DNA from: a virus
DNA: 38,229 bases
Virus record (IMG/VR): IMGVR_UViG_3300033153_004569
Span: 1-38,229 of that record
Direction: 5' to 3' (one strand)
Both the position numbers and the translations under genes were made by a program. Positions 7,538 to 33,460 of this stretch are shown piece after piece. The notes under the pieces are model-generated. The model ran no database searches and was not told the origin of the DNA. It saw only the letters and a list, made by a program, of their open reading frames with translations. Numbering within the stretch: the first letter of the stretch is position 1; every line of letters begins with the position of its first letter.

Positions 7538-7990
7538 TTAACTCCTTATGTATCCGCCCCATTTGTAGCCGGATTTATTTACGTTAGGTGTATTCGCAGA
7601 TATTCCATTAAGCGTAGACATTCTTCGCGCAAAGTCTCGTGCCTCTTGCTCCATCTCCAAATCAGCGTGCATCGCAGTAACCATTCTATCTGAGTCTAGT
7701 TCTGCCTGTGCAACTGCGTAGTCTGCCTGTGCATCGGCAGCATAACTTCCAGCCATATTGCCTGCGAACTCACCACCGACACTCCATCCACCGAGGCCTC
7801 CTGCAAGAGCCCCGGCTGGCCCTCCAACTATTCCACCCACCGTGGCACCTACCGCAGCACCACCAAAATTGCCCACAAGTGTCCAAAAACCAATATCATC
7901 ATTCGCATCTGAGGATGCTTGCCGCTCTCCTGTTGCATAAACTCTTTGAGGTGCTGGCGGTACGGGGTTTTCTCGTTTTCTTATTGCCAT
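7538..7990 (-). CDS. Glycine-zipper protein, possible membrane-interacting virion protein
   Basis: The product has 150 residues. Positions of about 38-80 are a glycine/alanine-rich hydrophobic stretch with GxxxG-type spacing (FGGAAVGATVGGIVGGP, then ALAGGLGGWSVGG), a glycine zipper. An alanine-rich, charged helix follows. Glycine zippers insert into or oligomerise in membranes, so a minor virion protein that helps DNA cross the cell envelope is one possibility. The start overlaps the large-terminase stop by one base. I do not recognise a named family. Confidence 0.6.
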   Translation of the reverse strand: MAIRKRENPVPPAPQRVYATGERQASSDANDDIGFWTLVGNFGGAAVGATVGGIVGGPAGALAGGLGGWSVGGEFAGNMAGSYAADAQADYAVAQAELDSDRMVTAMHADLEMEQEARDFARRMSTLNGISANTPNVNKSGYKWGGYIRS

Positions 7991-9420
7991 TAGAAATCAC
8001 TCCATGTTCCTGTGCGTGGCCTGTCAAAGTACCTCGCAATGTTAAATACTTCTGGTCCGGGTTCCGGTATCGGCTTTGGCATCTGTGGATTCTTATCTGC
8101 AAAAAGATAACAGAAACCAATCGCCATGCACAGATCTTTTTTTCCATCGAACTTTTCATATCGATTAACATGAAGAGAGTCGCACTCCTCTGCTAACTCT
8201 ATCGGGCCTGAAAGCCTGCCTTCTTCTACTGCTCGCTTTACTGCGAGCAGTCCCTGATATTGTGTGGACTTTGAGGTCTTCCATTCTACAACTGGGACAC
8301 CTCTTGCTCTTGTTGCTTGCACCGTTGCAAGCCCAATCCCGTTTGACTCTATGATTACTGAGCCACCGTACTTCGTGTACATAATCCTAATCATGTCAGC
8401 AAGCGTATCCACCGTAGCAGTCTCATCGCACCATGAAGCAACGATAGACATATCAGACTTTCTTATTACAGCTATTGCGCTCGCATCCTGCCCTAGACCC
8501 CCGGCAGTGTCTACGCCAATAACATATTCCTCTCCGCCTATTCTATTCTGGAATATCTTAAAGTCTTGCTGCATCATATGTTCCAACACTGGAGGAGTAA
8601 GGTTGATCCAGCGTCCCTCAGAGCTCATGAAGGCGTGTTCAGGCTTCTGGGGATACTCACGTAAGGCTCGAACCAGATCTCCTTGAAATCGATTCCTGAG
8701 AGTTTTTAGAAACCATGCTGCTGATTCTGCTCTGGTAAATCCGAGATCCTGCATCTCTCTCCACTCTTCTTCCGTAAAGGATGGCGTGCTTACATATGCC
8801 GCATGGTCCTCAACGGAGAAGAAGAGTTTCTCGAAATCATTCTTCTCTGACCAGAGTTTCCACATTAGATCACCCGGACCTGAGCTTGTGCTCTCCACCA
8901 TGATTGGCGCTGACAAACCTGCCGAACTTACCAGTGCGCCATATGCGTTTTGATCTGGCCAGAACGCGAGCTCTGAAAGATGAAGCAGTTGGAAGCTCAT
9001 AGATCTCCCAGCCTTAGACTCCGATTGCCCTTTTGCTGCGTTGGCTGTCACCGCATGTATTTCAGATCCCTCTTGAGTTACGATCTTACTGCGATTTGAA
9101 ATCCTCTGTGGGATTTTTAAGTCATCTAGCACCTGACGGGCGCGATCTAGCAGACCATGTACCTTTTGTTCCGTATCTGCCACGATTGCAACCTTAGATC
9201 CCGGATTCAAAATAACATATAGCGCATCTAGGAAACAACAAATCTGAGAGCACCCGATCTGGCGGCTCTTCAGAATAAGTATGTTCTTATTCCTAGATGC
9301 TGCGTCTAATATCTTAGCTTGTTCTTCATATACCTTGAACGGGATCATTTGGCCTGTGACCTGATCTGTTATCCGGCATAAGCTCGCCAGCTTCATCATC
9401 TTCGTCTTGTTCGGGAACAT
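7990..9420 (-). CDS. terL: Terminase large subunit (packaging ATPase and nuclease)
   Basis: This 476-residue protein carries an N-terminal ATPase with a Walker A-like K51-S-R-Q-I-G-C-S-Q and a Walker B ending LLHLSE (E150). The C-terminal RNase H-like nuclease has VIGVDTAGGLGQDAS, with D304 and D312 as likely metal ligands. It pumps DNA into the head through the portal and cuts the concatemer. The start at 9420 overlaps the small-subunit gene by 95 bases. The overlap is long, but the segment ITDQVTGQMIPFKVYEEQ is typical of TerL N termini, so I keep it. The ATPase loop is unusually cysteine-rich (GCSQICC). Confidence 0.88.
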   Translation of the reverse strand: MFPNKTKMMKLASLCRITDQVTGQMIPFKVYEEQAKILDAASRNKNILILKSRQIGCSQICCFLDALYVILNPGSKVAIVADTEQKVHGLLDRARQVLDDLKIPQRISNRSKIVTQEGSEIHAVTANAAKGQSESKAGRSMSFQLLHLSELAFWPDQNAYGALVSSAGLSAPIMVESTSSGPGDLMWKLWSEKNDFEKLFFSVEDHAAYVSTPSFTEEEWREMQDLGFTRAESAAWFLKTLRNRFQGDLVRALREYPQKPEHAFMSSEGRWINLTPPVLEHMMQQDFKIFQNRIGGEEYVIGVDTAGGLGQDASAIAVIRKSDMSIVASWCDETATVDTLADMIRIMYTKYGGSVIIESNGIGLATVQATRARGVPVVEWKTSKSTQYQGLLAVKRAVEEGRLSGPIELAEECDSLHVNRYEKFDGKKDLCMAIGFCYLFADKNPQMPKPIPEPGPEVFNIARYFDRPRTGTWSDF

Positions 9421-9883
9421 CTTCGTCCTCTGCTAGTAATGCCCGTAACTCTTGGGCAGGTGTTAAGATATTTGCGTCGGCTTCGGGCAAAGTCTTTAAG
9501 ACATGCGCGACAAGGCTGGAAACAACAGCCGCTGTTCGCGGTTCCATCTGGCCAGTCCTAACTTGATGCAGAGTTTCTACCGTGAACTGTCTAACATCTT
9601 CCATACTCTGCATCTCAGGTGAGGGCATTGACTCAGGTAGCTGCGCTGTTGTGTTGCCTCCCTTCTTACTATTCTCTAACCGGGTTTCTTTGTAGCTCGG
9701 CTCATGAAAATAACAAAAATCAAAACCATGCATTCTTCTTACGCTACATTGCTGCTCCTCAGAGTGGTAATGGGTACAGCGTATTCCAGAATGCGGCAGT
9801 TTTCTTTTTTTCTTGGGGGGTTTTTTCTGATCTGTAGATACAAAATAACCCGGTGTGTAGATTGGTATGTTTTGTTGTGTCAT
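9326..9883 (-). CDS. Terminase small subunit candidate with N-terminal zinc-type motif
   Basis: This is the first gene of the leftward late block, directly before the large terminase. The product has 185 residues. Residues 18-30 are lysine-rich. Next come C36, C46, C57 and H60 in a C-x9-C-x10-C-x2-H arrangement ending GFDFCYFH, a zinc-binding pattern seen in several phage small proteins. Residues of about 95-135 (VRQFTVETLHQVRTGQMEPRTAAVVSSLV, shown in part) are helical and resemble the oligomerisation region of small terminases. The C terminus is very acidic. It would recognise the packaging site and recruit TerL. The role is inferred mostly from position. AAGGA precedes the ATG by about nine bases. 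Confidence 0.55.
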   Translation of the reverse strand: MTQQNIPIYTPGYFVSTDQKKPPKKKRKLPHSGIRCTHYHSEEQQCSVRRMHGFDFCYFHEPSYKETRLENSKKGGNTTAQLPESMPSPEMQSMEDVRQFTVETLHQVRTGQMEPRTAAVVSSLVAHVLKTLPEADANILTPAQELRALLAEDEDVPEQDEDDEAGELMPDNRSGHRPNDPVQGI

Positions 9884-10036
9884 GGGCTTTGATCCTTGAC
9901 CTTTCCGACCTTGGGGAATAGATCCCCCTTGGACTGTTTTCTATATATTAACTAAGACCATGCCTATATGCACTATAATCGCTAATAATACTACTAACCT
10001 ACCTACCTACACTACTAACCACACCCACAACTACCA

Positions 10037-10065
10037 CCCTGAACACCCTACAACCCACTACCCCC
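10037..10065 (-). other. G-quadruplex motif on the minus strand
   Basis: Read on the minus strand, four G-runs (5, 3, 3 and 3 G) are separated by loops of 4, 5 and 6 bases, which fits the canonical G3+N1-7 pattern. A fifth run of three G lies 10 bases further along. If leftward transcription starts at the promoter candidate near 10443, the motif would lie in the long 5' leader of the late mRNA and also in the displaced DNA strand of an R-loop. Confidence 0.5.
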
Positions 10066-10256
10066 ACTTCGTGAGAGACTATCCCCTAGTTCCTAATACC
10101 TACTTACTATATAATAATAATACTCTATACCTACCTATATATTATTGTTTTTACAAACGCGGGGAATACCCCCCTATATTATTATTTATTTATTCATTTT
10201 ATTATTATATTATTTATTAATTCATTGATCCAATATGGATCTATTATCTATGTGTC

Positions 10257-10350
10257 TATTTACTCTAGGCACTCTCTCTCTCTTCTCTCTCTCTATCTCT
10301 ACTCTATCTCTCTCTATCTCGCTCTACTATTCTGGCTCTGCTTATCTAAG
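10257..10350. repeat. CT-rich microsatellite-like tract
   Basis: The plus strand is a run of CT and CTAT dinucleotide and tetranucleotide repeats with very few purines. Open frames through it translate to low-complexity S/L/Y-rich peptides without ribosome binding sites, so I do not call them genes. The complementary strand is GA-rich. It may form unusual DNA (triplex or R-loop) next to the proposed origin. Confidence 0.7.
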
Positions 10351-10471: not shown

Positions 10472-10590
10472 GGCTGTATATTTCTGTGGTGTTACGGCCA
10501 CTTGAAGTTTACCCTTAGCTTATGGTTGTATGTTGTTGGGCTTGGGCTGTTTCTCTTGGTGACATTCTATTCTTGTTGCCAACGGAACAC

Positions 10591-10703
10591 TGACCAAACC
10601 AAAAGCCCATCCGACGGAACGTCAATCATTACGTCGTCACCTCTCATTCTGGGGTGACGATGTAAGCCTTGCCGTGCCATCAGCTGGGCTTTTGGTTTGG
10701 TCA
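10591..10703. repeat. 113-bp imperfect palindrome upstream of the first paralog
   Basis: Two 51-base arms (10591-10641 and 10653-10703) flank an 11-base loop. The outer 19 bases are perfectly complementary (TGACCAAACCAAAAGCCCA against its reverse complement). The inner 32 bases align without gaps with 23 matches plus one G-T wobble, and the 13 bases next to the loop are complete apart from that wobble. The element contains two opposed copies of AACCAAAAGC. It could extrude as a cruciform, fold as RNA, or bind a dimeric protein. It ends 62 bases upstream of the first rightward promoter. Confidence 0.8.
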
Positions 10704-10764
10704 ACCTTGCACACATGAGCTTACATTTACTTACTATTATTATTATCTTTATAGGTTTAGTTAC

Positions 10765-10793
10765 TTGCGTTTTGTGAATGTGTTCCTTAGTCT
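10765..10793 (+). promoter_or_regulatory. Promoter P1 of the first paralogous cassette
   Basis: TTGCGT (10765-10770), a 17-base spacer and TAGTCT (10788-10793) lie 44 bases before the start codon. The same two boxes at the same spacing precede the second paralog, while the intervening bases have diverged. The boxes match sigma-70 consensus at three of six positions each. The expected start point, seven bases after the -10, falls on the first base of the conserved leader hairpin at 10800. Confidence 0.5.
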
Positions 10794-10799
10794 AATCAT

Positions 10800-10815
10800 G
10801 TTCCAATCAAGGAAC
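10800..10815 (+). promoter_or_regulatory. 5' leader hairpin of the first paralog
   Basis: GTTCC and GGAAC flank a six-base loop (AATCAA). The matching leader of the second paralog has GTTCC, AATGAA and GGGAC, where the changed base keeps pairing as G-U. The hairpin would sit at the very 5' end of the mRNA and could protect it from decay or bind a regulator. Confidence 0.45.
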
Positions 10816-10836
10816 AAACAAACAAGGATAATGACA

Positions 10837-11505
10837 ATGACAAAGAAAACTAAAATGTTACGAACTGAGGAAAAGAAACACATTGAGGGTTTGGCTCTTG
10901 AGGTAGTCAATAAGGATGTGGATATTAAAACCCAGAAAAGTAATCTACTTAATAAGGGTCAACGGGATTATCTCGAAGCCTGTGTTAAGTCTCATTGGGA
11001 AAAGCTGGGTGCTGGTACTGACATTCGTCCTAAGCCTGTTAAGACCTCATATGATACTGGTACCCAGTTTACATTAACGCATGACTGGACTCAGCCTGCT
11101 GATTTCAATGTGTATGATTCTAGCTGGGTGTCGATTGCTAAGGTTTGCTGTAATACGCACAAGCTTAGTAAGCCTCTGTTTGATTTGCTGTTAGCTGATT
11201 TGCAGACTGCTAGTGATGATATCAATGCTAGGTTTGGGGATGATTACGAGTACGAGGTACACCTTGATAATGCTAAGTTATCAATGCTTTATATCTTTGC
11301 TTGGTTAAGTCGTCGTGGTCCTCAGTTTGATATGGATAAAGCTGGTAAGATTTGCGTTGATAGGTTTGGTAATATGTATCATCGTACGAACTTGAGTAGT
11401 ACATCTGCTTACACTGCTGGCCATGGTTCATGGGCTGTTGTTGTTTCGGGTGTGTTTAATGAGTATCACACTGGTAATCTTGATGCGGTCAAGCTGCTTG
11501 GTTAG
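10837..11505 (+). CDS. Paralogous early protein A, unknown function
   Basis: The product has 222 residues from ATG 10837. I chose this start over 10831 because AGGAT lies seven bases upstream and because the paralog at 11926 starts at the same point (both begin MTKK). I do not recognise the family. It shares with the paralog an N-terminal block (IEG..xEV, RDYL, W-x3-GAG) and a C-terminal block (SM-x-YI, W, DKAGKICVDRFGNM against SKAGTCVIDRMG). Codons are often T-ended (GGT, CGT, GCT, CCT), unlike the A-rich operon genes downstream, which suggests strong expression or different ancestry. It is monocistronic, with its own promoter, leader hairpin and terminator, so it is probably an early, abundant host-takeover or origin-binding protein; this is inference. 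Confidence 0.8.
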   Translation: MTKKTKMLRTEEKKHIEGLALEVVNKDVDIKTQKSNLLNKGQRDYLEACVKSHWEKLGAGTDIRPKPVKTSYDTGTQFTLTHDWTQPADFNVYDSSWVSIAKVCCNTHKLSKPLFDLLLADLQTASDDINARFGDDYEYEVHLDNAKLSMLYIFAWLSRRGPQFDMDKAGKICVDRFGNMYHRTNLSSTSAYTAGHGSWAVVVSGVFNEYHTGNLDAVKLLG

Positions 11506-11511
11506 TCAATC

Positions 11512-11543
11512 AGGATGGACCCCAAAAGGGGTTCATCCTTTTT
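11512..11543 (+). terminator. Rho-independent terminator of paralog A
   Basis: A 12-base-pair stem (AGGATGGACCCC with GGGGTTCATCCT, one G-U pair) with an AAAA loop is followed by four to five T residues. It starts six bases after the stop codon of the first paralog. It is one of the strongest terminators in the window and isolates the gene from the second cassette. Confidence 0.85.
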
Positions 11544-11665
11544 CTGTGGTGATTTCAAATCCTGAACCACCATCAAAAAAAAATCGCACAACCAAAAGCA
11601 CAACCAAAATACCAACAGCCAAACGGTGCAGTCGGATGATCGGATGACATCACCACCGTAAGGTT

Positions 11666-11827
11666 AACAAAACCAAAAGCGATTCTAAAAGTAGTAGTAC
11701 TATTTATATTACATAGACGCCCTTCGGTTGGGGCTGACATCGTGTCGAGCAAGCTCGTCCCGATCCGCCCTCGGCCACTAATGACTGGTATGTACTACGA
11801 CATTTTAAAATCGCTTTTGGTTTTGTT
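11666..11827. repeat. Large inverted repeat upstream of the second paralog, with internal hairpins
   Basis: The outer 19 bases (11666-11684, AACAAAACCAAAAGCGATT) are perfectly complementary to 11809-11827. Pairing continues inward to about 11700/11792 with two mismatches and one bulge, giving a stem near 35 bp. The roughly 91 enclosed bases hold smaller hairpins: GCCC...GGGC after 11728, GACA-TCG-TGTC, and CGAGC-AA-GCTCG near 11757. This closed stem with several inner hairpins looks like a structured RNA or a cruciform. It shares the AACCAAAAGC arms, but not the inner sequence, with the palindrome at 10591-10703. The rest of 11544-11853 has no gene; it holds A-rich DNA, another AACCAAAAGC, and tandem CGGATGAT/CGGATGAC. 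Confidence 0.75.
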
Positions 11828-11853
11828 CGTTTCATCTCTATGGTTTTAGTTAC

Positions 11854-11882
11854 TTGCGTTTCCTTATGTCATCAGCTAGTCT
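11854..11882 (+). promoter_or_regulatory. Promoter P2 of the second paralogous cassette
   Basis: TTGCGT (11854-11859), a 17-base spacer and TAGTCT (11877-11882) repeat the arrangement at 10765-10793. The flank TTAGTTACTTGCGTTT is identical in both. The predicted start falls at 11889, again the first base of the leader hairpin. Confidence 0.5.
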
Positions 11883-11888
11883 GTTCTT

Positions 11889-11904
11889 GTTCCAATGAAG
11901 GGAC
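11889..11904 (+). promoter_or_regulatory. 5' leader hairpin of the second paralog
   Basis: GTTCC, loop AATGAA, GGGAC. The stem is kept relative to the first cassette by a G-U pair, and the loop differs by one base. The ribosome binding site AGGAT follows about ten bases later. Confidence 0.45.
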
Positions 11905-11925
11905 ACAAACGAACAGGATAAAACA

Positions 11926-12570
11926 ATGACTAAAAAACTAAGCACACAACGTAAGCGAATGATCGAAGGCATCAGTACTGAAGTTATTAATGACGTCGTT
12001 AGCAAGTCTATTGCTTTCGAGGGAATGAATAACAAAGAAGAACGTGACTACCTTGCTCAACAGATCCAATCCTTTTGGGATGCTAAAGGTGCGGGATCTG
12101 TTCTTCATGCTAGTGACGATGACACTGAGCATTTACGTGATGCATGGGAGGTTTGTGATGACTTCACCCATTACGATAGCGAAGGTTATTCTGTTGCATT
12201 CGAAAAGGATTTAATCTTTGCATGTAATGCTAAGGCCTATCCTTTCCCACGTCGCAAGAGGTTTATTAATCAGCTTGAAAAAAGATCTGCTACTTTGCAG
12301 GTTGGTTTCAATAGTTATGATGGTGACTCGTTCCCTTATGAGTTACACAAGATGAACGCTCAGATCTCCATGATCTATATCTGTTATTGGAAGTCCATCA
12401 TGGGCGAGCAGTGGGATATCAGCAAGGCGGGCACCTGCGTCATTGACCGTATGGGTTGTCTCATTAGGCGTACACCCAGCGAGCACAAGTCAAAGGTTAG
12501 CGAGTACCAAGCTGATGAAGGTGCATGGTTAAATGTTATTAAGGATATCGTTAGCCGATACACCAAGTAA
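11926..12570 (+). CDS. Paralogous early protein B, unknown function
   Basis: The product has 214 residues, starting MTKKLSTQRKRMIEG seven bases after AGGAT. It is a diverged paralog of the product of 10837-11505, with roughly 30 percent identity by eye over the ends and less in the middle. Shared residues include RDYL, FWDAKGAG and DISKAGTCVIDRMG. The family is not recognised; no Walker, zinc or clear helix-turn-helix motif is visible. The N terminus is basic and helical. As for the first paralog, codons are enriched in T-ended forms and the gene is framed by its own promoter and terminator. Duplication of the whole unit including control DNA suggests dosage or division of labour between the copies. 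Confidence 0.8.
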   Translation: MTKKLSTQRKRMIEGISTEVINDVVSKSIAFEGMNNKEERDYLAQQIQSFWDAKGAGSVLHASDDDTEHLRDAWEVCDDFTHYDSEGYSVAFEKDLIFACNAKAYPFPRRKRFINQLEKRSATLQVGFNSYDGDSFPYELHKMNAQISMIYICYWKSIMGEQWDISKAGTCVIDRMGCLIRRTPSEHKSKVSEYQADEGAWLNVIKDIVSRYTK

Positions 12571-12584
12571 CAAACACGCAGAAG

Positions 12585-12610
12585 ATCCCTCACTTGTTGG
12601 GGGATTTTTT
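12585..12610 (+). terminator. Rho-independent terminator of paralog B
   Basis: ATCCCTCA pairs with TGGGGGAT (one G-U) around a five-base loop, followed by six T. It begins 14 bases after the stop codon. Pairing may extend by three A-T or G-T pairs into the T run. It isolates the cassette from the early operon, which therefore needs its own promoter or antitermination. Confidence 0.8.
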
Positions 12611-12667
12611 GCGGCACAACCAAAAGCGTAACCGAAGGTTTGCAAGTTTACCTTGTCGGATGATTAA

Positions 12668-12741
12668 GTTTAAAAGTTTCCCATCAGTTTAAAAGTTTCC
12701 CATCTGGTTTAAATGTTTCCCTCCTAGTTTAAATGTTTGCA
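12668..12741. repeat. Four iterons of 19-20 bp
   Basis: The core GTTTAAAWGTTTSCC-like unit starts at 12668, 12687, 12707 and 12727. The spacings are 19, 20 and 20 bases, about two helical turns. Copies 1 and 2 are identical over 19 bases (AGTTTAAAAGTTTCCCATC); copies 3 and 4 have AAAT for AAAA. Regularly phased direct repeats next to an early operon that encodes a RepA-like ATPase are typical of initiator-binding iterons, but an operator array is equally possible. Confidence 0.75.
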
Positions 12742-12774
12742 TGTTTTATTCATACCTCCTTTCCCATCTTGGGT

Positions 12775-12788: not shown

Positions 12789-12820
12789 TGCAATTAAGCA
12801 TATAACAACAGGAGATGAAG

Positions 12821-13123
12821 ATGGTAGATATAGCAGATCAGATTGACACTTGTGAAGTAGACATGAGAACCATGATTGAAGCGTTGCTTGATGACGACGT
12901 TGGTGCAGTGTGTGACTACATACTTAAAGACGACAGGTCTGAGGCATACATCAAGGAAGAGTTACTAACAGAGAAAGAGCAATGTATTACAATCGTTCGC
13001 AACAGAGTGGTGCAAACACAGAAGGAGATAGACATGCTAAAGAACATGGTCGAGCTCTTACTACGAGGACAAGAAAGAATGATTGTTAAGTTAGATAAAC
13101 TTCCACACCGAGGAGAGATCTAA
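12821..13123 (+). CDS. First gene of the early operon, small helical protein, unknown function
   Basis: The product has 100 residues, starting MVDIADQIDTCEVDMRTM. ATG 12821 is preferred over 12815 because the GGAG at 12811-12814 leaves a workable gap of six bases only for the later codon. The protein is charged and mostly helical, with a heptad-like C-terminal half (VVQTQKEIDMLKNMVELLLRGQERMIVKL, shown in part) that could form a coiled coil. Its stop overlaps the next ATG (TAATG). The family is not recognised. Confidence 0.7.
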   Translation: MVDIADQIDTCEVDMRTMIEALLDDDVGAVCDYILKDDRSEAYIKEELLTEKEQCITIVRNRVVQTQKEIDMLKNMVELLLRGQERMIVKLDKLPHRGEI

Positions 13124-13434
13124 TGTTTGTAAGCAATCTCAATAAAGGTTTCAGCATGACCTTTGCAAATGGAAACACGGTATCAATACAGTGGGGTGTC
13201 GCTAACTATTGTGAACACTACATGAAGAAGGACGACGTTAAGCTATCAGCAACAAAGGAGACATGGAAAAGTAAGGACACTGAGATGGCAGCATGGAACA
13301 TCGATGGCGAGTGGCATAGCTTTGAGGTGGGCTGCGGCTTAGGTGGTAATCAGGTACAGGGGTACATAAGTGCAGACGAGGTTCTTGCATTCATGAACTT
13401 CGTAGCAACAAACAAAATAACTAAGGGAGAATGA
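13123..13434 (+). CDS. Early protein of unknown function, 103 residues
   Basis: The product begins MFVSNLNKGFSMTFANGNTVSIQWG and reads as a small strand-rich domain, then a helix ADEVLAFMNFVATN. A GC-GLGGNQVQGY stretch lies in the middle. The gene overlaps both neighbours (TAATG at the start, ATGA at the end). No known family is recognised, and nothing suggests membrane location. Confidence 0.7.
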   Translation: MFVSNLNKGFSMTFANGNTVSIQWGVANYCEHYMKKDDVKLSATKETWKSKDTEMAAWNIDGEWHSFEVGCGLGGNQVQGYISADEVLAFMNFVATNKITKGE

Positions 13435-13436
13435 TC

Positions 13437-13784
13437 ATGACAAATATGAAAACGATGCAAAGCAAATACAATACAAGATGTAGATGTGGATGTAAGAATA
13501 CTATTAGACGGGGCACAACCATAGGATACTCAAATACAAGGTGGGGAGTCGGATGGTTAAGGCTGGCCTGTGCTGTGGAGCTAGATGTTATCAACAGATG
13601 TGATGACATCTATACTAGAAGAAGATTGATTAATGTTCGCATGGGTATAGAGCCCGACGTAAAAATAAAACCAACAGTTGAAAAGGAACCAGACAACACT
13701 GAATGGTTGGAAGAAGACCTACTGTGTGAGGATGTCTATACTTCTTTTCTTTTTGTAAAGGAGAACAGCAATGGGATTTTATAA
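13437..13784 (+). CDS. Small protein with cysteine-rich N terminus (zinc-binding candidate)
   Basis: The product has 115 residues. I use ATG 13437, since the ribosome site AGGGAG ends too near 13431. Residues of about 12-45 contain C-x-C-x-C followed by NTIRRGTTIGY and a later cysteine (RLAC). The pattern C-x-CG-x2-I-x2-G-T is common in small phage proteins that bind zinc and sometimes DNA. The C-terminal half is acidic. Target and role are unknown. Confidence 0.65.
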   Translation: MTNMKTMQSKYNTRCRCGCKNTIRRGTTIGYSNTRWGVGWLRLACAVELDVINRCDDIYTRRRLINVRMGIEPDVKIKPTVEKEPDNTEWLEEDLLCEDVYTSFLFVKENSNGIL

Positions 13785-14088
13785 ACAAGTTAAAATACTA
13801 ATGGACTATAATGGTTTCACTGAACCAGAGGCAATCAAGTTCATACAGAACCAAGACAGTATGAGGAAGCAGCTAATAGCAAACGAAGAACAACAAAGAA
13901 AGGACGAGAAAGAAATGGAGGACGAGCTTCAATCAAACAAGGACCGTGTAAGGTTCGAGCTGAAGTTAGCGTTAACAGATCTACGTGCATACCAAGAAGT
14001 CAACAGGAATGATATGCATGTTCAGTCAGCCATTGATCGTTTAAAGTTAGTCGAACAAATCGTTTGGGAAGTAACGGGTGTCTTATGA
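13771..14088 (+). CDS. Helical early protein of unknown function, 105 residues
   Basis: Translation starts MGFYKQVKILMDYNGFTEPEA after a good AAAGGAG site. Residues 30-60 are a highly charged helix (NEEQQRKDEKEMEDEL), probably coiled coil, and the rest is also helical. The start lies inside the end of the previous gene (14-base overlap), and the stop overlaps the next ATG. The family is not recognised. Confidence 0.7.
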   Translation: MGFYKQVKILMDYNGFTEPEAIKFIQNQDSMRKQLIANEEQQRKDEKEMEDELQSNKDRVRFELKLALTDLRAYQEVNRNDMHVQSAIDRLKLVEQIVWEVTGVL

Positions 14089-14609
14089 GTCCTCGTTGGC
14101 CAAGTGATAATCCGTGGATAAACAAGGAGGACGAGATAGCTAAGCGACCTTACGCATGTGAGCAATGTTTAGCTATTGATCCCGACACCGTACAGTACAA
14201 GGATGGTGACTTTGATGATCACCTTGGTATGTATAAATCTTATGATATATATCTAAGCTGGTGTTGCAGGGAACACGTTGTTCGATTAACCGATGCGTTC
14301 ATTGACGATGCGTATCACAAATGTCCAATAAGAATAAAAAACTTTGGGCATTGTGATGACAAACATAATGCAATGGCAGGGGTCAAGATAGTTATACCAA
14401 TGATGTATGCAAGACTGCTGGCATGGGATGTTGGTAATGACATATCGTTAAGGTACACCGAGGTCAGCCCTCACTCAGTGTTTATCGAACGTGTATCAAG
14501 ACTCTTAAACTATGACAGCCATCACGAGACAAGGTGGCAAGTTAAGCTTAAGGAAAATCCAAAATGGAAACAGGGTGTTGTAACACTTAACATACAATGG
14601 AGATTATGA
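14085..14609 (+). CDS. Early protein with paired cysteines, unknown function
   Basis: The start at 14085 (ATGA overlap with the previous stop) gives 174 residues beginning MSPRWPSDNPWINKEDE. Cysteine and histidine residues cluster as YACEQC, then SWCCREH, then YHKC and GHCDDKH, which may form a zinc site. The C-terminal part (RWQVKLKENPKWKQGVV) is basic. I do not recognise the family. It sits in the middle of the tightly packed early operon, with no separate promoter visible. Confidence 0.65.
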   Translation: MSPRWPSDNPWINKEDEIAKRPYACEQCLAIDPDTVQYKDGDFDDHLGMYKSYDIYLSWCCREHVVRLTDAFIDDAYHKCPIRIKNFGHCDDKHNAMAGVKIVIPMMYARLLAWDVGNDISLRYTEVSPHSVFIERVSRLLNYDSHHETRWQVKLKENPKWKQGVVTLNIQWRL

Positions 14610-14923
14610 TGAGTAACAAAAGCAAGATGCCAGATGGCGGCTACCCAATGGGACCGTGGGACGAGGCACATCGCCGTGGCACAGTAGCAGAGGACTACCC
14701 TCATACTGTACGTGGTGGTACCCTCAACGAAAGAATATGGTCGGACGATAAGTCAACAAGGTTTCAAGCTAAGGAGGAGCAAGCGTTCCAACTATATCTT
14801 GATGGAAGACTCGAAGAGAAAACTTTATCTCAATCAGATGATGATTGCATACGGCAAGCCATGATCGATTGGAACGAAAACAACTGGCTCAAGGTAGTCA
14901 GGGTAGGGGATATAGAAGTATGA
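14609..14923 (+). CDS. Early protein of unknown function, 104 residues
   Basis: The preferred start is ATG 14609 (MSNKSKMPDGGYPMGPWDEA), six bases after GGAG; an in-frame ATG at 14606 is nearer to the site. The C-terminal half is acidic and helical (AKEEQAFQLYLDGRLEEK, then AMIDWNENNWLKVV). Its last bases overlap the following start. No motif is recognised. Confidence 0.65.
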   Translation: MSNKSKMPDGGYPMGPWDEAHRRGTVAEDYPHTVRGGTLNERIWSDDKSTRFQAKEEQAFQLYLDGRLEEKTLSQSDDDCIRQAMIDWNENNWLKVVRVGDIEV

Positions 14924-15213
14924 TAGCGCCAACGGATAAATCAAAACAGATGCAACGGTTACTAGAAACATTCAAAGTAAACAGAGAGGAGTCAATACTT
15001 AACGAGGTATGTGTTAACAAACCAGTAGGGTGCGGTGAACCAGTAACAAAGTTTGACGACGAGGTGTCATCAAAAGAGTACATGATCTCAGGCCTGTGTC
15101 AGTCATGCCAAGACAAAATGTGGGAAGGGGTTGATGATGTCAAAGATGCAGAAGAGGATACCTGTGATTACTTAAACGAAGTATCAGGGTATCCAGTAGG
15201 AGGTGACGAATGA
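14920..15213 (+). CDS. Small protein with zinc-ribbon-like cysteines
   Basis: The start at 14920 uses an ATGA overlap and gives 97 residues. Four cysteines in two groups (VCVNKPVGCGEPV and GLCQSCQDKMWEG) resemble a treble-clef or zinc-ribbon pair, as in small phage DNA- or RNA-binding proteins. The C terminus is acidic. The ribosome site of the next gene (GGAGG) lies in its last codons. Function is unknown. Confidence 0.6.
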   Translation: MIAPTDKSKQMQRLLETFKVNREESILNEVCVNKPVGCGEPVTKFDDEVSSKEYMISGLCQSCQDKMWEGVDDVKDAEEDTCDYLNEVSGYPVGGDE

Positions 15214-15398
15214 ATATCTACATAGTTATAGTGGGAAACCCATTGGATGGCTACAGCTTCATAGGACCATTCGATGATTATGAAGCTGCATATGACTATA
15301 CAATACTAAAGGGTATAGCATCACGCGCTTGGGTATCCACTGTGCATTCACCAACAACTCCAGAAGAAGATAGAATGTTCGAGGAAGACAATGAGTAA
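15210..15398 (+). CDS. 62-residue early protein, unknown function
   Basis: Translation begins MNIYIVIVGNPLDGYSFIGPF after a strong GGAGG and overlaps the previous stop by four bases. The sequence alternates strand and helix (DDYEAAYDYTILKG) and ends acidic. Small proteins of this pattern (a G-P-F-x-D-x-E-A-A motif) occur widely in phages without an assigned role. It is coupled to the nuclease gene that follows, with an eight-base overlap. Confidence 0.65.
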   Translation: MNIYIVIVGNPLDGYSFIGPFDDYEAAYDYTILKGIASRAWVSTVHSPTTPEEDRMFEEDNE

Positions 15399-15843
15399 GA
15401 TGCAAAGAGACAAGGGTGCTAGGTTTGAACGCTGGACCAGACAGCAGTTTGAATACCTATATAGCACCACCCTTTCCAGAGGACAACAACGTGCAGGGGC
15501 TTTACAACCAGATGTCATCGCACCTGATTGGTGGATCGAATGTACTGTGGGAAAAAACCCACGGGTCTATGCAAAGATACATCAGTCGGAGCGAGATCTA
15601 AAGTCTTGTGCTCATGAACATAGAAACAAGAAACCTTTAATCATACATAAGAAAGACAGGGAAGATGTATGGGTAACACTAAGATGGAAAGACTTCGTTG
15701 AGTTACTACAAAACTCACAGAGTTATCAGGAGTTATACTATGAGAAAAAGGAAATCCCTAATGAACGGACAAGGAACATTAGGGACATCCAAAACAAACA
15801 AGATAAACAAGATGTAGTTAAGCATCTTGAAGGGGATATATGA
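15391..15843 (+). CDS. PD-(D/E)XK nuclease, Holliday-junction-resolvase-like
   Basis: The product has 150 residues. The core is KGARFERW, LSRGQQRAGALQPDV and WWIECTVGKNP, followed by a basic helix and VWVTLRWKDFVELL. This matches the E-D-ExxxK layout of small phage and archaeal-type resolvases: E13, D in QPDV, E in WIECT and a following lysine. It would cut branched DNA before packaging. The usual ExK is replaced by E-C-T-x-G-K, so the assignment is moderate. The last 35 residues are charged and low-complexity. The gene closes this run of overlapping genes; a 93-base gap follows. Confidence 0.55.
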   Translation: MSKMQRDKGARFERWTRQQFEYLYSTTLSRGQQRAGALQPDVIAPDWWIECTVGKNPRVYAKIHQSERDLKSCAHEHRNKKPLIIHKKDREDVWVTLRWKDFVELLQNSQSYQELYYEKKEIPNERTRNIRDIQNKQDKQDVVKHLEGDI

Positions 15844-15845
15844 TG

Positions 15846-15863
15846 ACTTTCTTTGAGGAAAGT
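15846..15863 (+). terminator. Short hairpin after the resolvase-like gene
   Basis: ACTTTC and GAAAGT pair perfectly around a six-base loop, three bases after the stop codon. The following bases are AT-rich but not a T run. It may act as a weak terminator, a processing site or a 3' end stabiliser at the only real gap in the early operon. Confidence 0.3.
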
Positions 15864-15882
15864 TATCATATATCTATATATA

Positions 15883-15911
15883 ATTATAAGAGCTTGCATC
15901 ATTAAACGCAA
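15883..15911 (-). promoter_or_regulatory. Antisense promoter candidate in the gap before the ArdC-like gene
   Basis: On the minus strand TTGCGT (15906-15911), 17 bases, then a perfect TATAAT (15883-15888). The -35 is again inside CTTGCGTTT. It would produce RNA antisense to the resolvase-like gene. The site overlaps a dyad (GCTTGC...GCAAGC, 15892-15913). It also overlaps a weaker plus-strand pair, TTGCAT (15894-15899) and TAAACT (15917-15922), that could serve the ArdC-like gene. Confidence 0.4.
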
Positions 15912-15936
15912 GCATATAAACTACAGGGAGAACAAG

Positions 15937-16791
15937 ATGAGTAGTCAGACAAAAAACAATAAGGTATTTCAATACATTATAGACGCTCTTGAAAAGGGAA
16001 CAGTCCCTTGGCGTAGTCCGTATAAGCCCATGATATCAGGTCATGGTCACGTTTACACTGGTGTGAACCGCATGGTTTTAAACATGGAAGCTAGGCTAAA
16101 GGAGTACACCAGTAGAACTTGGTACACCTACAAGGGTGCCAAGAAGAATGGCGGTACTGTGTGCAAGGGCGAGAAGGGTACACCAATCATATACTACTCG
16201 CAGGGCACGAAGGAGAACAAGGAAGGAGAGCAGCAGTTCTGGTTGGTAAGGAAGGTTTACTATGTATTCAACAAAGATCAGTGTGATTTTTGGGAAGACG
16301 AATCAGAGGTAGAAGAAGAATGGGCACCAACATGGTCAGGAGATACCATCGTGGGCGCATACGCAACCAACAATCCTGAGCTCAAGATTACTCATGTACC
16401 GGGCATGGCCTACTATGCTCCAAAGAAAGATGTAGTCAATGTTCCTATGCCAAGAGAACTAGAGGCAGGGATGTACTACCCGACAATGTTTCATGAGTTA
16501 GCTCATTCGACAGGCGCAAAGCATAGGCTTGATCGATCAGGCATAACAGATATTAACATGCATGGAGATCATGCTTACAGTGAGGAGGAGTTAGTAGCAG
16601 AGATGACGACAGCGTACCTATGTGGGTATGCAAACTTTCAGATGGAAATGTTAGATCAGAGTGCAGCATATATAAAAGGATGGATGAAGGGAATCAAAGA
16701 TGACCCGAACATACTTCAACGTGCAGCATCGATGGCAGAGAAAGCATTTGATTACATAGTACAAACAAACAAGGGAGATGACAATGGATAA
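15937..16791 (+). CDS. ardC: ArdC-like antirestriction protein (ssDNA-binding domain plus metallopeptidase)
   Basis: The product has 284 residues from ATG 15937, chosen because AGGGAG lies six bases upstream. The N-terminal domain (about 7-115) has the ArdC ssDNA-binding pattern: YIIDALEKGTVPWRSPY, YTGVNRMVL and KGEKGTPIIYY. The C-terminal domain is a zinc metallopeptidase with HELAH at 186-190 and a downstream glutamate in ELVAEM (E222). Proteins of this family protect incoming DNA from type I and II restriction and may cleave host defence proteins. The length and both domains are complete. Its own small intergenic control region suggests early, separately controlled expression. Confidence 0.85.
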   Translation: MSSQTKNNKVFQYIIDALEKGTVPWRSPYKPMISGHGHVYTGVNRMVLNMEARLKEYTSRTWYTYKGAKKNGGTVCKGEKGTPIIYYSQGTKENKEGEQQFWLVRKVYYVFNKDQCDFWEDESEVEEEWAPTWSGDTIVGAYATNNPELKITHVPGMAYYAPKKDVVNVPMPRELEAGMYYPTMFHELAHSTGAKHRLDRSGITDINMHGDHAYSEEELVAEMTTAYLCGYANFQMEMLDQSAAYIKGWMKGIKDDPNILQRAASMAEKAFDYIVQTNKGDDNG

Positions 16792-17377
16792 GCATACAAC
16801 GTCAGCAGAGTATAGCACAGTCGAAGCACATGAGAACGCATCACACTACATGGACGAGGAGGGTGGTCTAACTATACCAGACTCAGAGAAAGACAGACTT
16901 GCGGTAGGCAAGTATGTCTTCGATAAGGTGTACGAGATACCAGATAGGTATCGCAATGCCTTACTAATAGTCGCGCTTAACTGTGCTACTGAGATAGTGC
17001 AGAAGGGACAACCAGCACACATCAAAATAGCTACGGCATACAAGACTCTTAAGTCTGTCATGTCTGCTTACTCGCACGGCACTGAGCTACTAAGCATAGT
17101 GCAGCGTAGCTGGTTCACTGTCTTGGTTGAGTATCTTGTCTATTGCAGGCTGAAGCAAATGGACAAAGAAATAAAACCAGACACCTACGATAGTCATGAG
17201 GGCATACACTGGGAGGTGTGCTCTATCCATGACTTAGTGGATAACAATATGTATGACTGCAACATGATCGGACACGACGAGGAAGGCAATACATATAATG
17301 GATGGGCTGTTGTTTATGATCCGTATTCTATGGATGGACAATGGGACACCGTAACTGACATAGAACAGGAGCGTTAA
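16784..17377 (+). CDS. Early protein of unknown function, 197 residues
   Basis: ATG 16784 (MDKHTTSAEYSTVEAHENAS) is preferred because GGGAG lies too close to the upstream in-frame ATG 16778. The central part (DRYRNALLIVALNCATEIVQKGQPAH, shown in part, through SMVEYL-like helices) is helical, and the C-terminal 60 residues are acidic with aromatic residues. It overlaps the end of the ArdC-like gene by eight bases. No family is recognised. A role linked to ArdC is possible from coupling only. Confidence 0.65.
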   Translation: MDKHTTSAEYSTVEAHENASHYMDEEGGLTIPDSEKDRLAVGKYVFDKVYEIPDRYRNALLIVALNCATEIVQKGQPAHIKIATAYKTLKSVMSAYSHGTELLSIVQRSWFTVLVEYLVYCRLKQMDKEIKPDTYDSHEGIHWEVCSIHDLVDNNMYDCNMIGHDEEGNTYNGWAVVYDPYSMDGQWDTVTDIEQER

Positions 17378-17689
17378 ATGAGAACAAGGAATGTATATAG
17401 CAATGGTTTCAAATGGGATGAAGTGTTTCCCACTGGGGATAACGTGCTCGTAAAGGGCATACTACCTAGTGACTTCATGCAGATTGTACACACTGATCAT
17501 CTTAATGAGATGAGCATGTGTAAAATCTTTGAGGTTATTAATATCGGTGACGACGTAAAAGGATTAGAGAAAGGAATGATCGTTACTATTTTAAAAGCAG
17601 GGATCGATATGATTGATCCCGATGAACCACGTATGGGCATAGTATCAGTTCTTGATATCAAGGCCAGAATAGTAGGAGATACAAAATGA
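17378..17689 (+). CDS. Possible GroES-like co-chaperonin
   Basis: The product has 103 residues. The order of elements resembles GroES or T4 gp31: an N-terminal strand PTGDNVLVKGI, a gap in the mobile-loop position, CKIFEVINIGDDVKGLEKGMIVTI in the place of GEVLAVG...VGDIVIF, and a final strand MGIVSVLDIKARIV like VLIMSESDILAIV. If correct, it would replace host GroES to fold the capsid protein. Identity is low and the mobile-loop residues are not clearly hydrophobic, so this remains a structural hypothesis. AGGAG lies eight bases before the start, directly after the previous stop. Confidence 0.35.
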   Translation: MRTRNVYSNGFKWDEVFPTGDNVLVKGILPSDFMQIVHTDHLNEMSMCKIFEVINIGDDVKGLEKGMIVTILKAGIDMIDPDEPRMGIVSVLDIKARIVGDTK

Positions 17690-18261
17690 CAAACAAGTTA
17701 AAACCTGAGATAGTTAAGATACTTAAAGAGTTCGGACTAGATCCAAGAGAGGCACTATGGGACTGTCATGGGTCATGGATTTTATTACATAAGTCTTGTC
17801 AAACAATAGCCATGAAGATGGGTATCAAGTTCGATAAGCCAGAAGTTCTACATATGGATATCGGAAAGAAAGAAGTAGTCTTCTTGTTATGTGGAACCAA
17901 CTCAGACGGAGAGGTCAGGTGGGATATTGGTGAGGCAATGCCTTCAAACAATAAGAACTCCTACCCTGTCTCAATGGGGCTTAAGCGAGCAGAGGATAAG
18001 ATCATTATCCACTTGGCTCGACTAAGAGAACATGGTGTCTATTCAAGCGAAGAGGCTGACGAGTTCAAGGACAAGCCAGTTAACAATAATCAAAAAGGAT
18101 TTGCTGATCGTATTAGTATTCTTATTTCTGAGGCTACTAATAAACAGCAAGTAAAGCAGATCGTTGCGGGACATCGTAGCGATCTTAACAACTTGCCAGT
18201 GCGTACGCGCAACGGCATTAAGAAGCTCTGTGATGAAAAGGTCACACAGCTACAGGAGTAA
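17686..18261 (+). CDS. Recombination-associated protein candidate (single-strand annealing type)
   Basis: The product has 191 residues. The central part, DIGEAMPSNNKNSYPVSMGL then KRAEDKIIIHLARLREHGVYSSEEADEFK (shown in parts), matches a pattern I know from phage proteins next to exonucleases and SSB: GEA-x-P-N, YP-x2-M-x2-KRA-x-D, then EEADEF. The C-terminal 50 residues form a helical arm (SEATNKQQVKQIVAGHRSDL). It is followed at once by SSB, and a YqaJ-type exonuclease lies downstream, so an annealing or DNA-loading role is likely. I cannot name the exact family. The ATGA start overlaps the previous stop. Confidence 0.4.
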   Translation: MTNKLKPEIVKILKEFGLDPREALWDCHGSWILLHKSCQTIAMKMGIKFDKPEVLHMDIGKKEVVFLLCGTNSDGEVRWDIGEAMPSNNKNSYPVSMGLKRAEDKIIIHLARLREHGVYSSEEADEFKDKPVNNNQKGFADRISILISEATNKQQVKQIVAGHRSDLNNLPVRTRNGIKKLCDEKVTQLQE

Positions 18262-18264
18262 CAA

Positions 18265-18657
18265 ATGAGTGTAAGAGGTGTAAACAAGCAGATAGTTATG
18301 GGTCGCCTTGGTGTTGATCCAGCATTAAACGAGAAGGCTAAGATACCAGTATGTAATCTTAGCGTTGCCACACCGGGCAGAATGGAGGGTACGGAGCAAT
18401 CCGTTGAGTGGGTAAAGGTTACAGTGTTCGGCAAGACTGCTGAGAACTGTGCCAAGTACCTCAAGAAAGGAAGCACCGTCTACATCGAAGGGCGTCAGCA
18501 GACTGAGAAGTATGAGGACAAACAAGGTGTAACCCGTTACTCAACAAAGTGTATAGCTGGACACGTCGTCTTCGTTGGTTCTGACAAGCCAAAGAAGGAA
18601 CGAGAAGAAGAGCATCACTTTGAAGATGCAGAGGATGGCTTTGGAACGCCGTTCTAA
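18265..18657 (+). CDS. ssb: Single-stranded DNA-binding protein
   Basis: The product has 130 residues with the bacterial SSB OB fold: NKQIVMGRLGVDPAL, VCNLSVATPGR, EWVKVTVFGKTAENCAKYLKKGSTVYIEG (shown in part) and GRQQTEKYEDKQGVTRYST. It ends in a short acidic tail with DGFGTPF, equivalent to the DDDIPF tip that recruits partners. It coats ssDNA during replication and recombination. AGGAG lies six bases before ATG. The end overlaps the start of the sigma-like gene by 32 bases. Confidence 0.92.
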   Translation: MSVRGVNKQIVMGRLGVDPALNEKAKIPVCNLSVATPGRMEGTEQSVEWVKVTVFGKTAENCAKYLKKGSTVYIEGRQQTEKYEDKQGVTRYSTKCIAGHVVFVGSDKPKKEREEEHHFEDAEDGFGTPF

Positions 18658-19081
18658 AAAAGATCTGGTAGATTATTATCTTAGGGTCTTTGAGGTACCA
18701 TCAACTTATCCCGGAGATAAGGACGACTTACGACAAGTAGGTCGGATGGGTGTCTTAAGGGCCATTGAGACTTTCGACTCAACCAAGTCCAAGTTTAATA
18801 CTTGGGCTTGGTTTTGGATCAGGTCTTATATAAGAGATGAGATTACCAGACATAAGCGTCGTCAGTACTCAGAAGATTTGTGTTATCATAATGGGTGTGA
18901 TAGAAAGGTCTTACTTAGGCAGCTCGTAAGTATGATCGATGATGACAAAAACAAAGAGTTACTTACAAGATACTTAGCAGGACAAACAACAAGCGAGATA
19001 GCAAGAACATGGAAGGTATCAAGACAGTCGGTGGACCAGAGATTGTCAAAGATACACAGCAACATAAGGGAGAAGATATGA
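18626..19081 (+). CDS. Sigma-70-family RNA polymerase sigma factor, phage-encoded
   Basis: The product has 151 residues from ATG 18626 (ATG 18635 is the alternative). Region 2 is clear at about 33-75: DDLRQVGRMGVLRAIETFD, KFNTWAWFWIRSYIRDEI, the pattern of the core-binding and -10-melting helices. Region 4 at about 110-150 (YLAGQTTSEIARTWKVSRQ then SVDQRLSKIHSNI) is a helix-turn-helix that reads the -35 box. Region 1.1 and a long linker are absent, as in small alternative sigma factors. It probably redirects host RNA polymerase to phage promoters. The gene sits between ssb and the RepA-like ATPase and overlaps both, so it is made from the early operon. Confidence 0.85.
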   Translation: MQRMALERRSKKDLVDYYLRVFEVPSTYPGDKDDLRQVGRMGVLRAIETFDSTKSKFNTWAWFWIRSYIRDEITRHKRRQYSEDLCYHNGCDRKVLLRQLVSMIDDDKNKELLTRYLAGQTTSEIARTWKVSRQSVDQRLSKIHSNIREKI

Positions 19082-19902
19082 GAAAAGACTTCATGAAGGC
19101 AGAGCACTTTTTTAAAAGGGATCTACCTAAACTACAGTGGACGGTAGGATCTCTGATAGAACAGGGAACCTTTGTTCTTCTAGGGGGCGAGCCTAAGACA
19201 AGTAAGACTTGGGCCGCACTGGACATTTGCCTATCCGTGGCAAGTGGAATGAATGCCTTTGGTGACTCGGAGTTCCACACAGAACCCAGACCTGTCTTTA
19301 TGTTTCTACTTGAAGACGGAGAGTATAATGTGATGGCACGGTTACAGGCACTGGCCAAGGGTAAGGGCATTAGCGATAAGCAAATCTATCACATGCCAAT
19401 GTATCTTAGATGCCGCAAGCCTCTATGTATAGACGAAGAGGTGAACAGCATCGTCAACATGATAGATGATTTCATGAGAGAGCATGAGCTCATGGAAATA
19501 AGAAAGGGTCTAATATTAATAGACCCCTTAAGAAATGCTCATCACAAAGAAGAGAACGACTCTGGCCAAATGAGGCAGGTCATGGAAGCATGTTTATATA
19601 TAAGAGATAGAACAGGCTACTCTATCTTAGTCAATCATCACTTCAAGAAGATGACAGCAGCGCAGCAAGAAACTCCTGGAAACGCTATGCGTGGTAGCAG
19701 CAGTATCTATGGTAGCGTTGATGGCATAATAGGTATGCGTCGGATCGAGTCAGAAGAGAAAAATACTTGGAGAAATAATGTTTCGACTCAGGTAAAAGCT
19801 GGGCCACAGGCAGCACCATTTGGTCTTGAGCTCGTTGTCGAAGACGGAGATCATGGTCGAGCCAAGGAAGCAACATGGAAAGTAGGAGGTTTGTACGGAT
19901 GA
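19078..19902 (+). CDS. RepA-like hexameric ATPase/helicase (AAA_25 type)
   Basis: The product has 274 residues from ATG 19078, which overlaps the sigma stop (ATGA) and follows AGGGAG. This start fits better than an in-frame ATG 69 bases earlier. Walker A is G37-EPKTSKT44, with FMFLLEDGEYNVMARL following, Walker B KGLILIDPL, then LVNHHFKK and RGSSSIYGSVDGIIGM, the RecA-fold order of RSF1010 RepA and phage AAA_25 proteins. It could unwind DNA at the origin, or load SSB or an annealing protein. No primase domain is fused and no primase gene is seen, so host primase is probably recruited. Neighbours are sigma and a recombination exonuclease. Confidence 0.75.
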   Translation: MRKDFMKAEHFFKRDLPKLQWTVGSLIEQGTFVLLGGEPKTSKTWAALDICLSVASGMNAFGDSEFHTEPRPVFMFLLEDGEYNVMARLQALAKGKGISDKQIYHMPMYLRCRKPLCIDEEVNSIVNMIDDFMREHELMEIRKGLILIDPLRNAHHKEENDSGQMRQVMEACLYIRDRTGYSILVNHHFKKMTAAQQETPGNAMRGSSSIYGSVDGIIGMRRIESEEKNTWRNNVSTQVKAGPQAAPFGLELVVEDGDHGRAKEATWKVGGLYG

Positions 19903-20534
19903 AGATAAACGATGTGGATTTTATCTCTATTGATCGCTCACTCGTCATCGGTGGAACCGATGCCAGTGTTCTTCTTGGAGTGAACAAATGGAAGAACAGA
20001 GATCAGCTTCTACTAGAGAAGGCAGGTAAGTACAAGGTTGAGCAAAACGATGCGATGTATTGGGGAGTCATGGCCGAGCCTATGATTGCCAAGCACATCG
20101 AAGCAAACTTCATTGAAGACAATCAGCTCTTGTTCAACCCAGCCGAACATCATCCACAGGTTGCTCATCCAGAGTATCCCTTTATCGTTGGCTCTCCTGA
20201 TAGGTTAGTCATCGATAAGGATACTCAAGAGGTTGTCGAGGGAGTTGAGATAAAAACTTCTTTCGAGTGGGCCTTAAAGGGATGGAAGAAAGGTGTACCT
20301 GATTACTATATACCACAGGCACAAGTCTATATGATGTGTCTTGGTTTTAGTTCATGGAGACTGTTCGCCTTAGTTGGCAACCGTACCTTTCTCCACTATA
20401 CCATAGAAGAAGATCTATTCATGCAGGAAGAGATCATCGATAAATCAAAGGCGTTCTATAAAGAAATGCTAGAACAAGATAACAAGGACTGTAAGGAGGC
20501 TTTGAAAAAATATGAAACAATCTTGGAAGGATGA
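19899..20534 (+). CDS. YqaJ-type viral recombinase exonuclease
   Basis: The product has 211 residues from ATG 19899 (ATGA overlap, GGAGG upstream). The PD-(D/E)XK core is visible: GGTDASVLLGVNKWKN at the N terminus, MYWGVMAEPMIAKHIE, the catalytic D in GSPDRLV, E-x-K in EGVEIKTS, and YYIPQAQVYMMCLG with the motif glutamine and tyrosine. Like lambda exonuclease, it would chew 5' ends to give 3' tails for annealing. With ssb and the annealing-type candidate upstream, it forms a recombination module that can generate concatemers for packaging. Length is normal for the family. Confidence 0.8.
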   Translation: MKINDVDFISIDRSLVIGGTDASVLLGVNKWKNRDQLLLEKAGKYKVEQNDAMYWGVMAEPMIAKHIEANFIEDNQLLFNPAEHHPQVAHPEYPFIVGSPDRLVIDKDTQEVVEGVEIKTSFEWALKGWKKGVPDYYIPQAQVYMMCLGFSSWRLFALVGNRTFLHYTIEEDLFMQEEIIDKSKAFYKEMLEQDNKDCKEALKKYETILEG

Positions 20535-20886
20535 AAGAAGCAAGCACGTAAGGCTTGTCGGCCACTGTGAAACTCTAAGGGCGGCAATCAAAGAAAGGCT
20601 CAATGAGAAGCTTGACCCAATAATGCTAGGCACTGAATGCCTAGATTCGGGCGAGGCTGTTTCAGTAATACTTGAAGTAGCGATAGCGTGTGAGGTGTTA
20701 TCATCCACACTGCTAAAGGCAGCAGAAGATATTTCAGGGTCGGATGAGGAAAAGCGTATGATCGACTGGATGAAGAAAGATCAAAAGTTTTATGAGACCT
20801 ATACCGAAATGACATCACAAGGTATAAGTCGAAGATACCATAGCACTAAAAGGTTTCGATTTGCTATGCCAGCAGGAGAAGCTTGA
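20512..20886 (+). CDS. Last certain gene of the early block, unknown function
   Basis: The product has 124 residues, starting MKQSWKDERSKHVRLVG, with AGGAGG 11 bases upstream and a 23-base overlap with the exonuclease gene. The middle is helical (AVSVILEVAIACEVLSSTLL) and the end is basic and aromatic (GISRRYHSTKRFRFAM). No family is recognised. Coupling to the exonuclease may point to a recombination accessory role. Confidence 0.65.
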   Translation: MKQSWKDERSKHVRLVGHCETLRAAIKERLNEKLDPIMLGTECLDSGEAVSVILEVAIACEVLSSTLLKAAEDISGSDEEKRMIDWMKKDQKFYETYTEMTSQGISRRYHSTKRFRFAMPAGEA

Positions 20887-21233
20887 AGGTCGTATTGGAT
20901 GAAAGAGATCTTAGGATCTTAGATAGGGTAAACGCTTCGCCAGAAGCGAGGCGTTTGCTCGCATACATTAAGGGCAAGTTTAAGGGCGAGATACTATCTG
21001 CCGAGATTATTCGCCCAGAGCCTTATGAGTCCATCCATCAAGTTCCACGTGGAACGGGTCCCATCCCAATGGGATCTTTCGACCCTTTCTCCAGTTCCCT
21101 CCCCAGCGAAGCTTCGGATGCTCTGTCGCAAGAACGCGCCCGAAGTAAAGCCATACGGCTAGAACATCAGGAAAAACAACTTGGCCTCCTTTTACCCCTG
21201 TCTCCCACGGAGAAAAACCAACAAGATCGGTAA
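20883..21233 (+). CDS. Doubtful TTG-start gene running antisense into the endolysin
   Basis: A frame of 116 codons opens with TTG at 20883 (GGAG six bases upstream; TTGA overlap with the previous stop). The first 41 residues (KVVLDERDLRILDRVNASPE, then ARRLLAYIKGKFKGE) look like a real soluble helical protein. The remaining 75 lie antisense to the endolysin gene and are low in recognisable features. Either a short gene has drifted into its convergent neighbour, or this is only an open frame. The hairpin at 20930-20956 lies inside it, which argues against it. Confidence 0.35.
   Translation: MKVVLDERDLRILDRVNASPEARRLLAYIKGKFKGEILSAEIIRPEPYESIHQVPRGTGPIPMGSFDPFSSSLPSEASDALSQERARSKAIRLEHQEKQLGLLLPLSPTEKNQQDR
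20930..20956. terminator. Bidirectional terminator candidate between converging blocks
   Basis: An 11-base-pair stem with one G-T pair (AAACGCTTCGC with GCGAGGCGTTT) and a five-base loop lies between the rightward stop at 20886 and the leftward endolysin stop at 21007. The stem has AAA at its left foot and TTT at its right, so it gives a short U tract in either direction. Its place at the meeting point of the two transcription units supports the call; the U tracts are short. Confidence 0.45.
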
Positions 21234-31852: not shown

Positions 31853-31865
31853 GTTCTGTCTCCTT

Positions 31866-33452: not shown

Positions 33453-33460
33453 AGTTATTC

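Follow-up and report, generated by a model that had tools for sequence, protein, structure and literature searches.

Two diverged copies of an accessory, moron-like cassette, candidates for early expression, between the divergent operons of a 38-kb virus sequence

What are two similar gene cassettes doing between the divergent operons of a virus, and why has their control DNA been kept while the genes and spacers have diverged? We analysed the virus sequence IMGVR_UViG_3300033153_004569 over its whole length of 38,229 bases (the window). The cassettes sit between leftward late genes, which include TerS, TerL, a P22-like portal and a coat gene and resume at the right end (21988-38209), and rightward early genes (12815-21233), i.e., ardC and the genes for SSB, a sigma-like factor, an AAA ATPase and a YqaJ exonuclease (Table 1). 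The record is probably a near-complete circular map, because genes from the two ends of the window adjoin each other in the related record L007. A search for the host via prophages gave no match. Judging by the sample numbers of its relatives, the phage may be of marine type. The phage-encoded sigma-like factor (18626-19081) has a match at E up to 0.001 in seven of 12 related records. Directly before the early operon, four tandem repeats of 19-20 bp (AGTTTAAAAGTTTCCCATC and variants; 12667-12745) have an iteron- or operator-like appearance, and upstream of terS runs a long low-complexity tract (CCTA, TATTATT, CTCTCT; 9950-10340), similar in character to a tract in the related record L004.

Table 1. 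Positions of the cassette elements and neighbouring features in the window
Feature	Position	Strand	Details	Basis
TerL	7990-9420		leftward late genes	
TerS	9326-9883		leftward late genes	
Inverted repeat 1 (IR1)	10591-10703	.	19-bp perfect outer stem TGACCAAACCAAAAGCCCA, extended imperfect hairpin; AACCAAAAGC at 10597(+), 10688(-)	folding, simulation
Promoter A	10756-10793	+	box TTTAGTTACTTGCGTTT 10756-10772; TTGCGT (10765)-N17-TAGTCT (10788)	predicted only
Leader hairpin A	10799-10816	+	TGTTCC-AATCAA-GGAACA, at or near predicted mRNA 5' end	
Ribosome-binding site A	10825-10829	+	AGGAT, 7 nt before ATG	
Gene A	10837-11505	+	222 aa (P0001), without family	sequence and profile searches
Intrinsic terminator A	11512-11544	+	-21.9 kcal/mol	
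Downstream site A	11586-11609	+	GCACAACCAAAAGC and degenerate copy AACCAAAA, after terminator A	
Inverted repeat 2 (IR2)	11666-11827	.	19-bp perfect outer stem AACAAAACCAAAAGCGATT; AACCAAAAGC at 11671(+), 11813(-)	folding, simulation
Promoter B	11845-11882	+	same box 11845-11861; TTGCGT (11854)-N17-TAGTCT (11877)	predicted only
Leader hairpin B	11888-11905	+	TGTTCC-AATGAA-GGGACA	
Ribosome-binding site B	11915-11919	+	AGGAT, 6 nt before ATG	
Gene B	11926-12570	+	214 aa (P0002), paralog of A	tblastn, codon-position comparison
Intrinsic terminator B	12578-12612	+	-20.8 kcal/mol	
Downstream site B	12614-12627	+	GCACAACCAAAAGC, after terminator B	
Inverted promoter box at ardC	15904-15920	+	AAACGCAAGCATATAAA, just upstream of ardC (15940)	

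Genes A and B are diverged paralogs, as a sequence-only reading of this DNA had proposed. Their products share 33% identity in tblastn (E 7e-29; 36% in an alignment), and the identity at codon positions 1, 2 and 3 amounts to 47, 55 and 36%, a pattern of change that identifies both as real coding sequences. Their T-ended codons set them apart, again in line with that reading: the share of T at fourfold sites is 0.63 in A and 0.58 in B vs 0.13-0.42 in the 34 other genes scored, and the major capsid protein gene ranks next (0.42) among all 36 genes. This shift is consistent with high expression or with foreign origin, which are inseparable here.

Neither product matches a known family, by sequence, profile or structure, which leaves the earlier statement to this effect intact. 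Searches of Pfam, PHROGs, NCBIfam, PADLOC and PDB sequences gave no match for A or B, and no relative was found by tblastn against phages (A and B) and plasmids (gene B) or by seeded scans of IMG/VR and bacterial genomes, where a missing match is weak evidence of absence because such scans detect close relatives only. None of the 33 matches to the degenerate peptide pattern D..KAG....DR.G....R was a relative, and homology, seeded and pattern searches found no second carrier of the cassettes. Two weak phage matches on the same stretch of the proteins, one to an ORF resembling a methyltransferase and one to an unrelated small ORF, were taken as chance. The AlphaFold models of A and B were poor (pLDDT 54 and 57), and the best Foldseek match obtained from them (E 0.67) was discarded; a DNA-binding domain was not recognized in either protein, the models being too weak to judge.

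In contrast to the genes, the putative control elements have been kept. The 17-bp box TTTAGTTACTTGCGTTT is exact in both cassettes, with 81 nt from box to ATG in each, and the identical TTGCGT-N17-TAGTCT pair that had been noticed before each gene is indeed there. The same holds for the GTTCC/GGRAC leader hairpins, with a 5'UTR similarity between the cassettes of z = 9.4, and for the strong terminator behind each gene. The interiors of the upstream repeats are not significantly alike (46 of 500 shuffles score as well), nor are the outer flanks, so the claim of retained control elements amid diverged genes and spacers stands. The spacing between AGGAT and ATG, described as the same, differs between A and B. 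As a promoter, predicted from its conservation, TTGCGT/TAGTCT is a weak sigma-70 match and was absent from the promoter-scan output; a promoter-pattern search gave no match. In the window, each of the four intergenic copies of TTGCGTTT is paired with a TA-rich hexamer at a distance of exactly 17 bases; the intragenic copy lacks it. A TTGCGT-N17-TATTAA pair on the minus strand (10471-10443) faces TerS and may be a late promoter of the cassette type.

Upstream of each gene lies a large inverted repeat, of 113 bp for IR1 (arms 10591-10641/10653-10703) and 162 bp for IR2 (arms 11666-11690/11803-11827). That these repeats, already singled out from the letters, exceed chance expectation is seen in simulation: the longest perfect inverted repeat in 40 simulated genomes, counted over spans of up to 250 bp, measured 10-13 bp vs 19 bp for both outer stems. 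Folding as single-stranded DNA yielded z = -7.2 (IR1) and -5.4 (IR2). The core AACCAAAAGC has six exact copies in the 38-kb genome, all inside 10597-12627, compared with three copies altogether in the 40 simulated genomes (<0.1 per genome). Each gene is preceded by an inverted pair and has one further copy directly behind its terminator (11590, 12618); this trailing copy is an addition to the earlier description of the cassettes. All six core sites are identical despite the 33% identity of the paralogs, and where the 14-bp arm cores of IR1 and IR2 differ, at one place, the opposite arm carries the matching change (ACC/GGT to ACA/TGT), thus stem symmetry was kept. Simple looping by a dimer is disfavoured because the half-site spacings, 91 and 142 bp, are out of helical register. 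In the literature, AACCAAAAGC occurred in unrelated uses among the matches listed. Readings of the repeats as integron attC or REP-type elements, made by eye, were dropped (no matching core, no HUH motif).

Genes A and B occur in none of the 12 related phage records sharing the same head genes, not every one of which spans the whole locus; AACCAAAAGC is missing from 11 of them, and the remaining record has two scattered copies. The cassette unit is therefore accessory. L004 and L006, among the nearest relatives, have the locus sequenced and both lack A and B, and the nearest relative with the region sequenced carries other small genes between terS and the early operon. The suggested co-occurrence of genes and sites is seen in that the site cluster is missing from the same 12 records as the genes, which ties the sites to the genes. 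TerL identity to the nearest relatives is 74-76%, compared with 33% between the paralogs, which points to a pair of long standing and not to a recent duplication: the duplication probably predates the split from these relatives, unless A and B evolve much faster than TerL, and the pair would therefore have arrived together or been lost elsewhere. Early regions of the relatives have repeated elements of their own. A leader, TTAGTTAAATGCAAAGCATTGAAA, whose first half resembles the cassette box, is repeated before several early genes of L004 (6752-8460), and hairpins with CTCTCTCT/AGAGAGAG arms are found in four relatives (L013 4872, L030 5764, L032 5012, L033 2095).

Such an accessory distribution, together with the inverted copies that flank each gene (10688/11590; 11813/12618), would also be expected if the AACCAAAAGC repeats bounded, or were left over from, a small mobile element (of MITE type, or a gene set between GCTTTTGGTT...AACCAAAAGC) that spread as mobile cassettes and whose repeats are non-regulatory. 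We assign this a small though appreciable probability: the 113- and 162-bp repeats with perfect outer stems do look MITE-like, but domain searches with both proteins revealed neither a transposase nor a recombinase domain, no target-site duplication was seen by eye at 10590/12628 and the flanking copies have only about 10-14 bp in common. Moreover, a search of IMG/VR (viral_contigs) with the IR1-type repeat pattern returned six matches, apparently chance, with no relative of A or B nearby.

It is unlikely that the repeats are only hairpin insulators or weak bidirectional terminators against outside transcription, like the ardC-upstream region of pLS20, where EGeRS1-B blocks readthrough (PMC8708921). 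Their RNA folds are very stable on either strand (-62 to -69 kcal/mol), but they have long loops and a broken U-tract, a strong terminator already precedes IR2, no rightward gene was recognized from terS to IR1, and the trailing single AACCAAAAGC copies form no hairpin.

A third copy of the cassette box in the window lies inverted within 36 bases before ardC, with three mismatches, and overlaps a different promoter-like pair there. In L004, the only box match (at most three mismatches) is at the same place before its ardC, with two mismatches over 16 nt. ardC is missing from ten other related records, and a search of nine of these with the same threshold gave no box match. The shared box is a lead rather than proof, because L004 and L006 are near copies that count as one independent relative and the box pattern was widened after the L004 match had been seen. 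It agrees with an early role of the cassettes. The inverted repeats were not found at ardC. Both the window (15836-15920) and L004 (5190-5300) have a strong hairpin before ardC, followed by the box AAACGCAAG, which is conserved and lies within a promoter-like pair.

The position of the box also bears on whether A and B, rather than being early takeover proteins, are accessory proteins of the virion or internal proteins, made in large amounts. Their codon bias goes in the same direction as that of the major capsid protein, and morons can encode virion proteins (PMC2147016). Yet neither gene belongs to the late operon; both are encoded on the other strand and have terminators of their own, and apart from the cassettes close copies of the promoter box were found only by ardC, all of which makes a virion role quite improbable. 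Binding of the A/B pair to a replication origin or packaging sites, for which clustered repeats between divergent operons and the iteron-like 19-20-bp repeats following at 12667 could speak, is highly improbable, since a core role in replication or packaging is hard to reconcile with 12 related records that have the same head genes and neither the genes nor the site cluster, and the earlier suggestion of an origin-binding pair thus finds no backing.

The explanation that we prefer, and to which we give about an even chance, is an accessory pair of moron-like, independent early-expression cassettes that share a box with ardC and specify early counter-defence or host-takeover products. The two cassettes would have long diverged from one common ancestor. 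The TTGCGT-N17-TAGTCT promoter of each gene would give rise to a short mRNA with the hairpin at its 5' end and the strong terminator at the other, resulting in a high dose of a protein of about 25 kDa. The earlier notion of a self-contained, retained expression unit fits a gene pair in which each member has its own predicted promoter and terminator and no detectable family. The AACCAAAAGC sites may be a control element that belongs to the cassettes themselves: a single trans-factor, be it protein A, protein B or a factor from the host or the phage, would recognize them, and/or they would insulate the cassettes as hairpins. Because ardC has the promoter box too, a role among early functions for counter-defence or takeover of the host would be most likely for the products, and the cassettes perhaps form part of a regulon linked to ardC, like those of the Bacillus pLS20 plasmid family. 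A bolder version, in which A and B represent a new protein family and both paralogs bind AACCAAAAGC as a self- and cross-regulated pair within a counter-defence regulon marked by the ardC-shared box, we regard as doubtful.

Morons are accessory phage genes with their own promoter and terminator. The cassettes resemble them as extra genes between conserved operons, each with its own predicted promoter and terminator and atypical codon usage, that are absent from the related records compared here; they differ in forming an old duplicated pair, each member with a large inverted repeat and a post-terminator site, and in an overall GC content that is not atypical for the phage. Like MITE and REP/RAYT-type elements, the cassettes combine a small gene with inverted repeats that flank or adjoin it and have the same terminal core, but there is no transposase family match, no target duplication was seen and only two units occur in one genome. 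In pLS20-family plasmids, ardC and variable genes of unknown function have upstream sequences in common, among them EGeRS1, which is rich in inverted repeats and blocks readthrough, and EGeRS2, a promoter with repeated operators beside it (PMC8708921). The likeness to these establishment regulons lies in a candidate upstream sequence common to ardC and genes of unknown function, in upstream inverted repeats as in EGeRS1 and in repeated, operator-like sites next to a promoter as in EGeRS2; unlike them, the cassettes are phage-borne, and only the 17-bp box, inverted at ardC, is shared with that gene, where the repeats do not occur. We treat the likeness as one of shared logic. Should the box in common be the mark of a regulon, the DNA before phage ardC genes could reveal early counter-defence genes by position rather than homology, as genes have already been picked on Bacillus plasmids, and the A/B pair, having no detectable relative, would be a direct candidate for such a position-based test of counter-defence.
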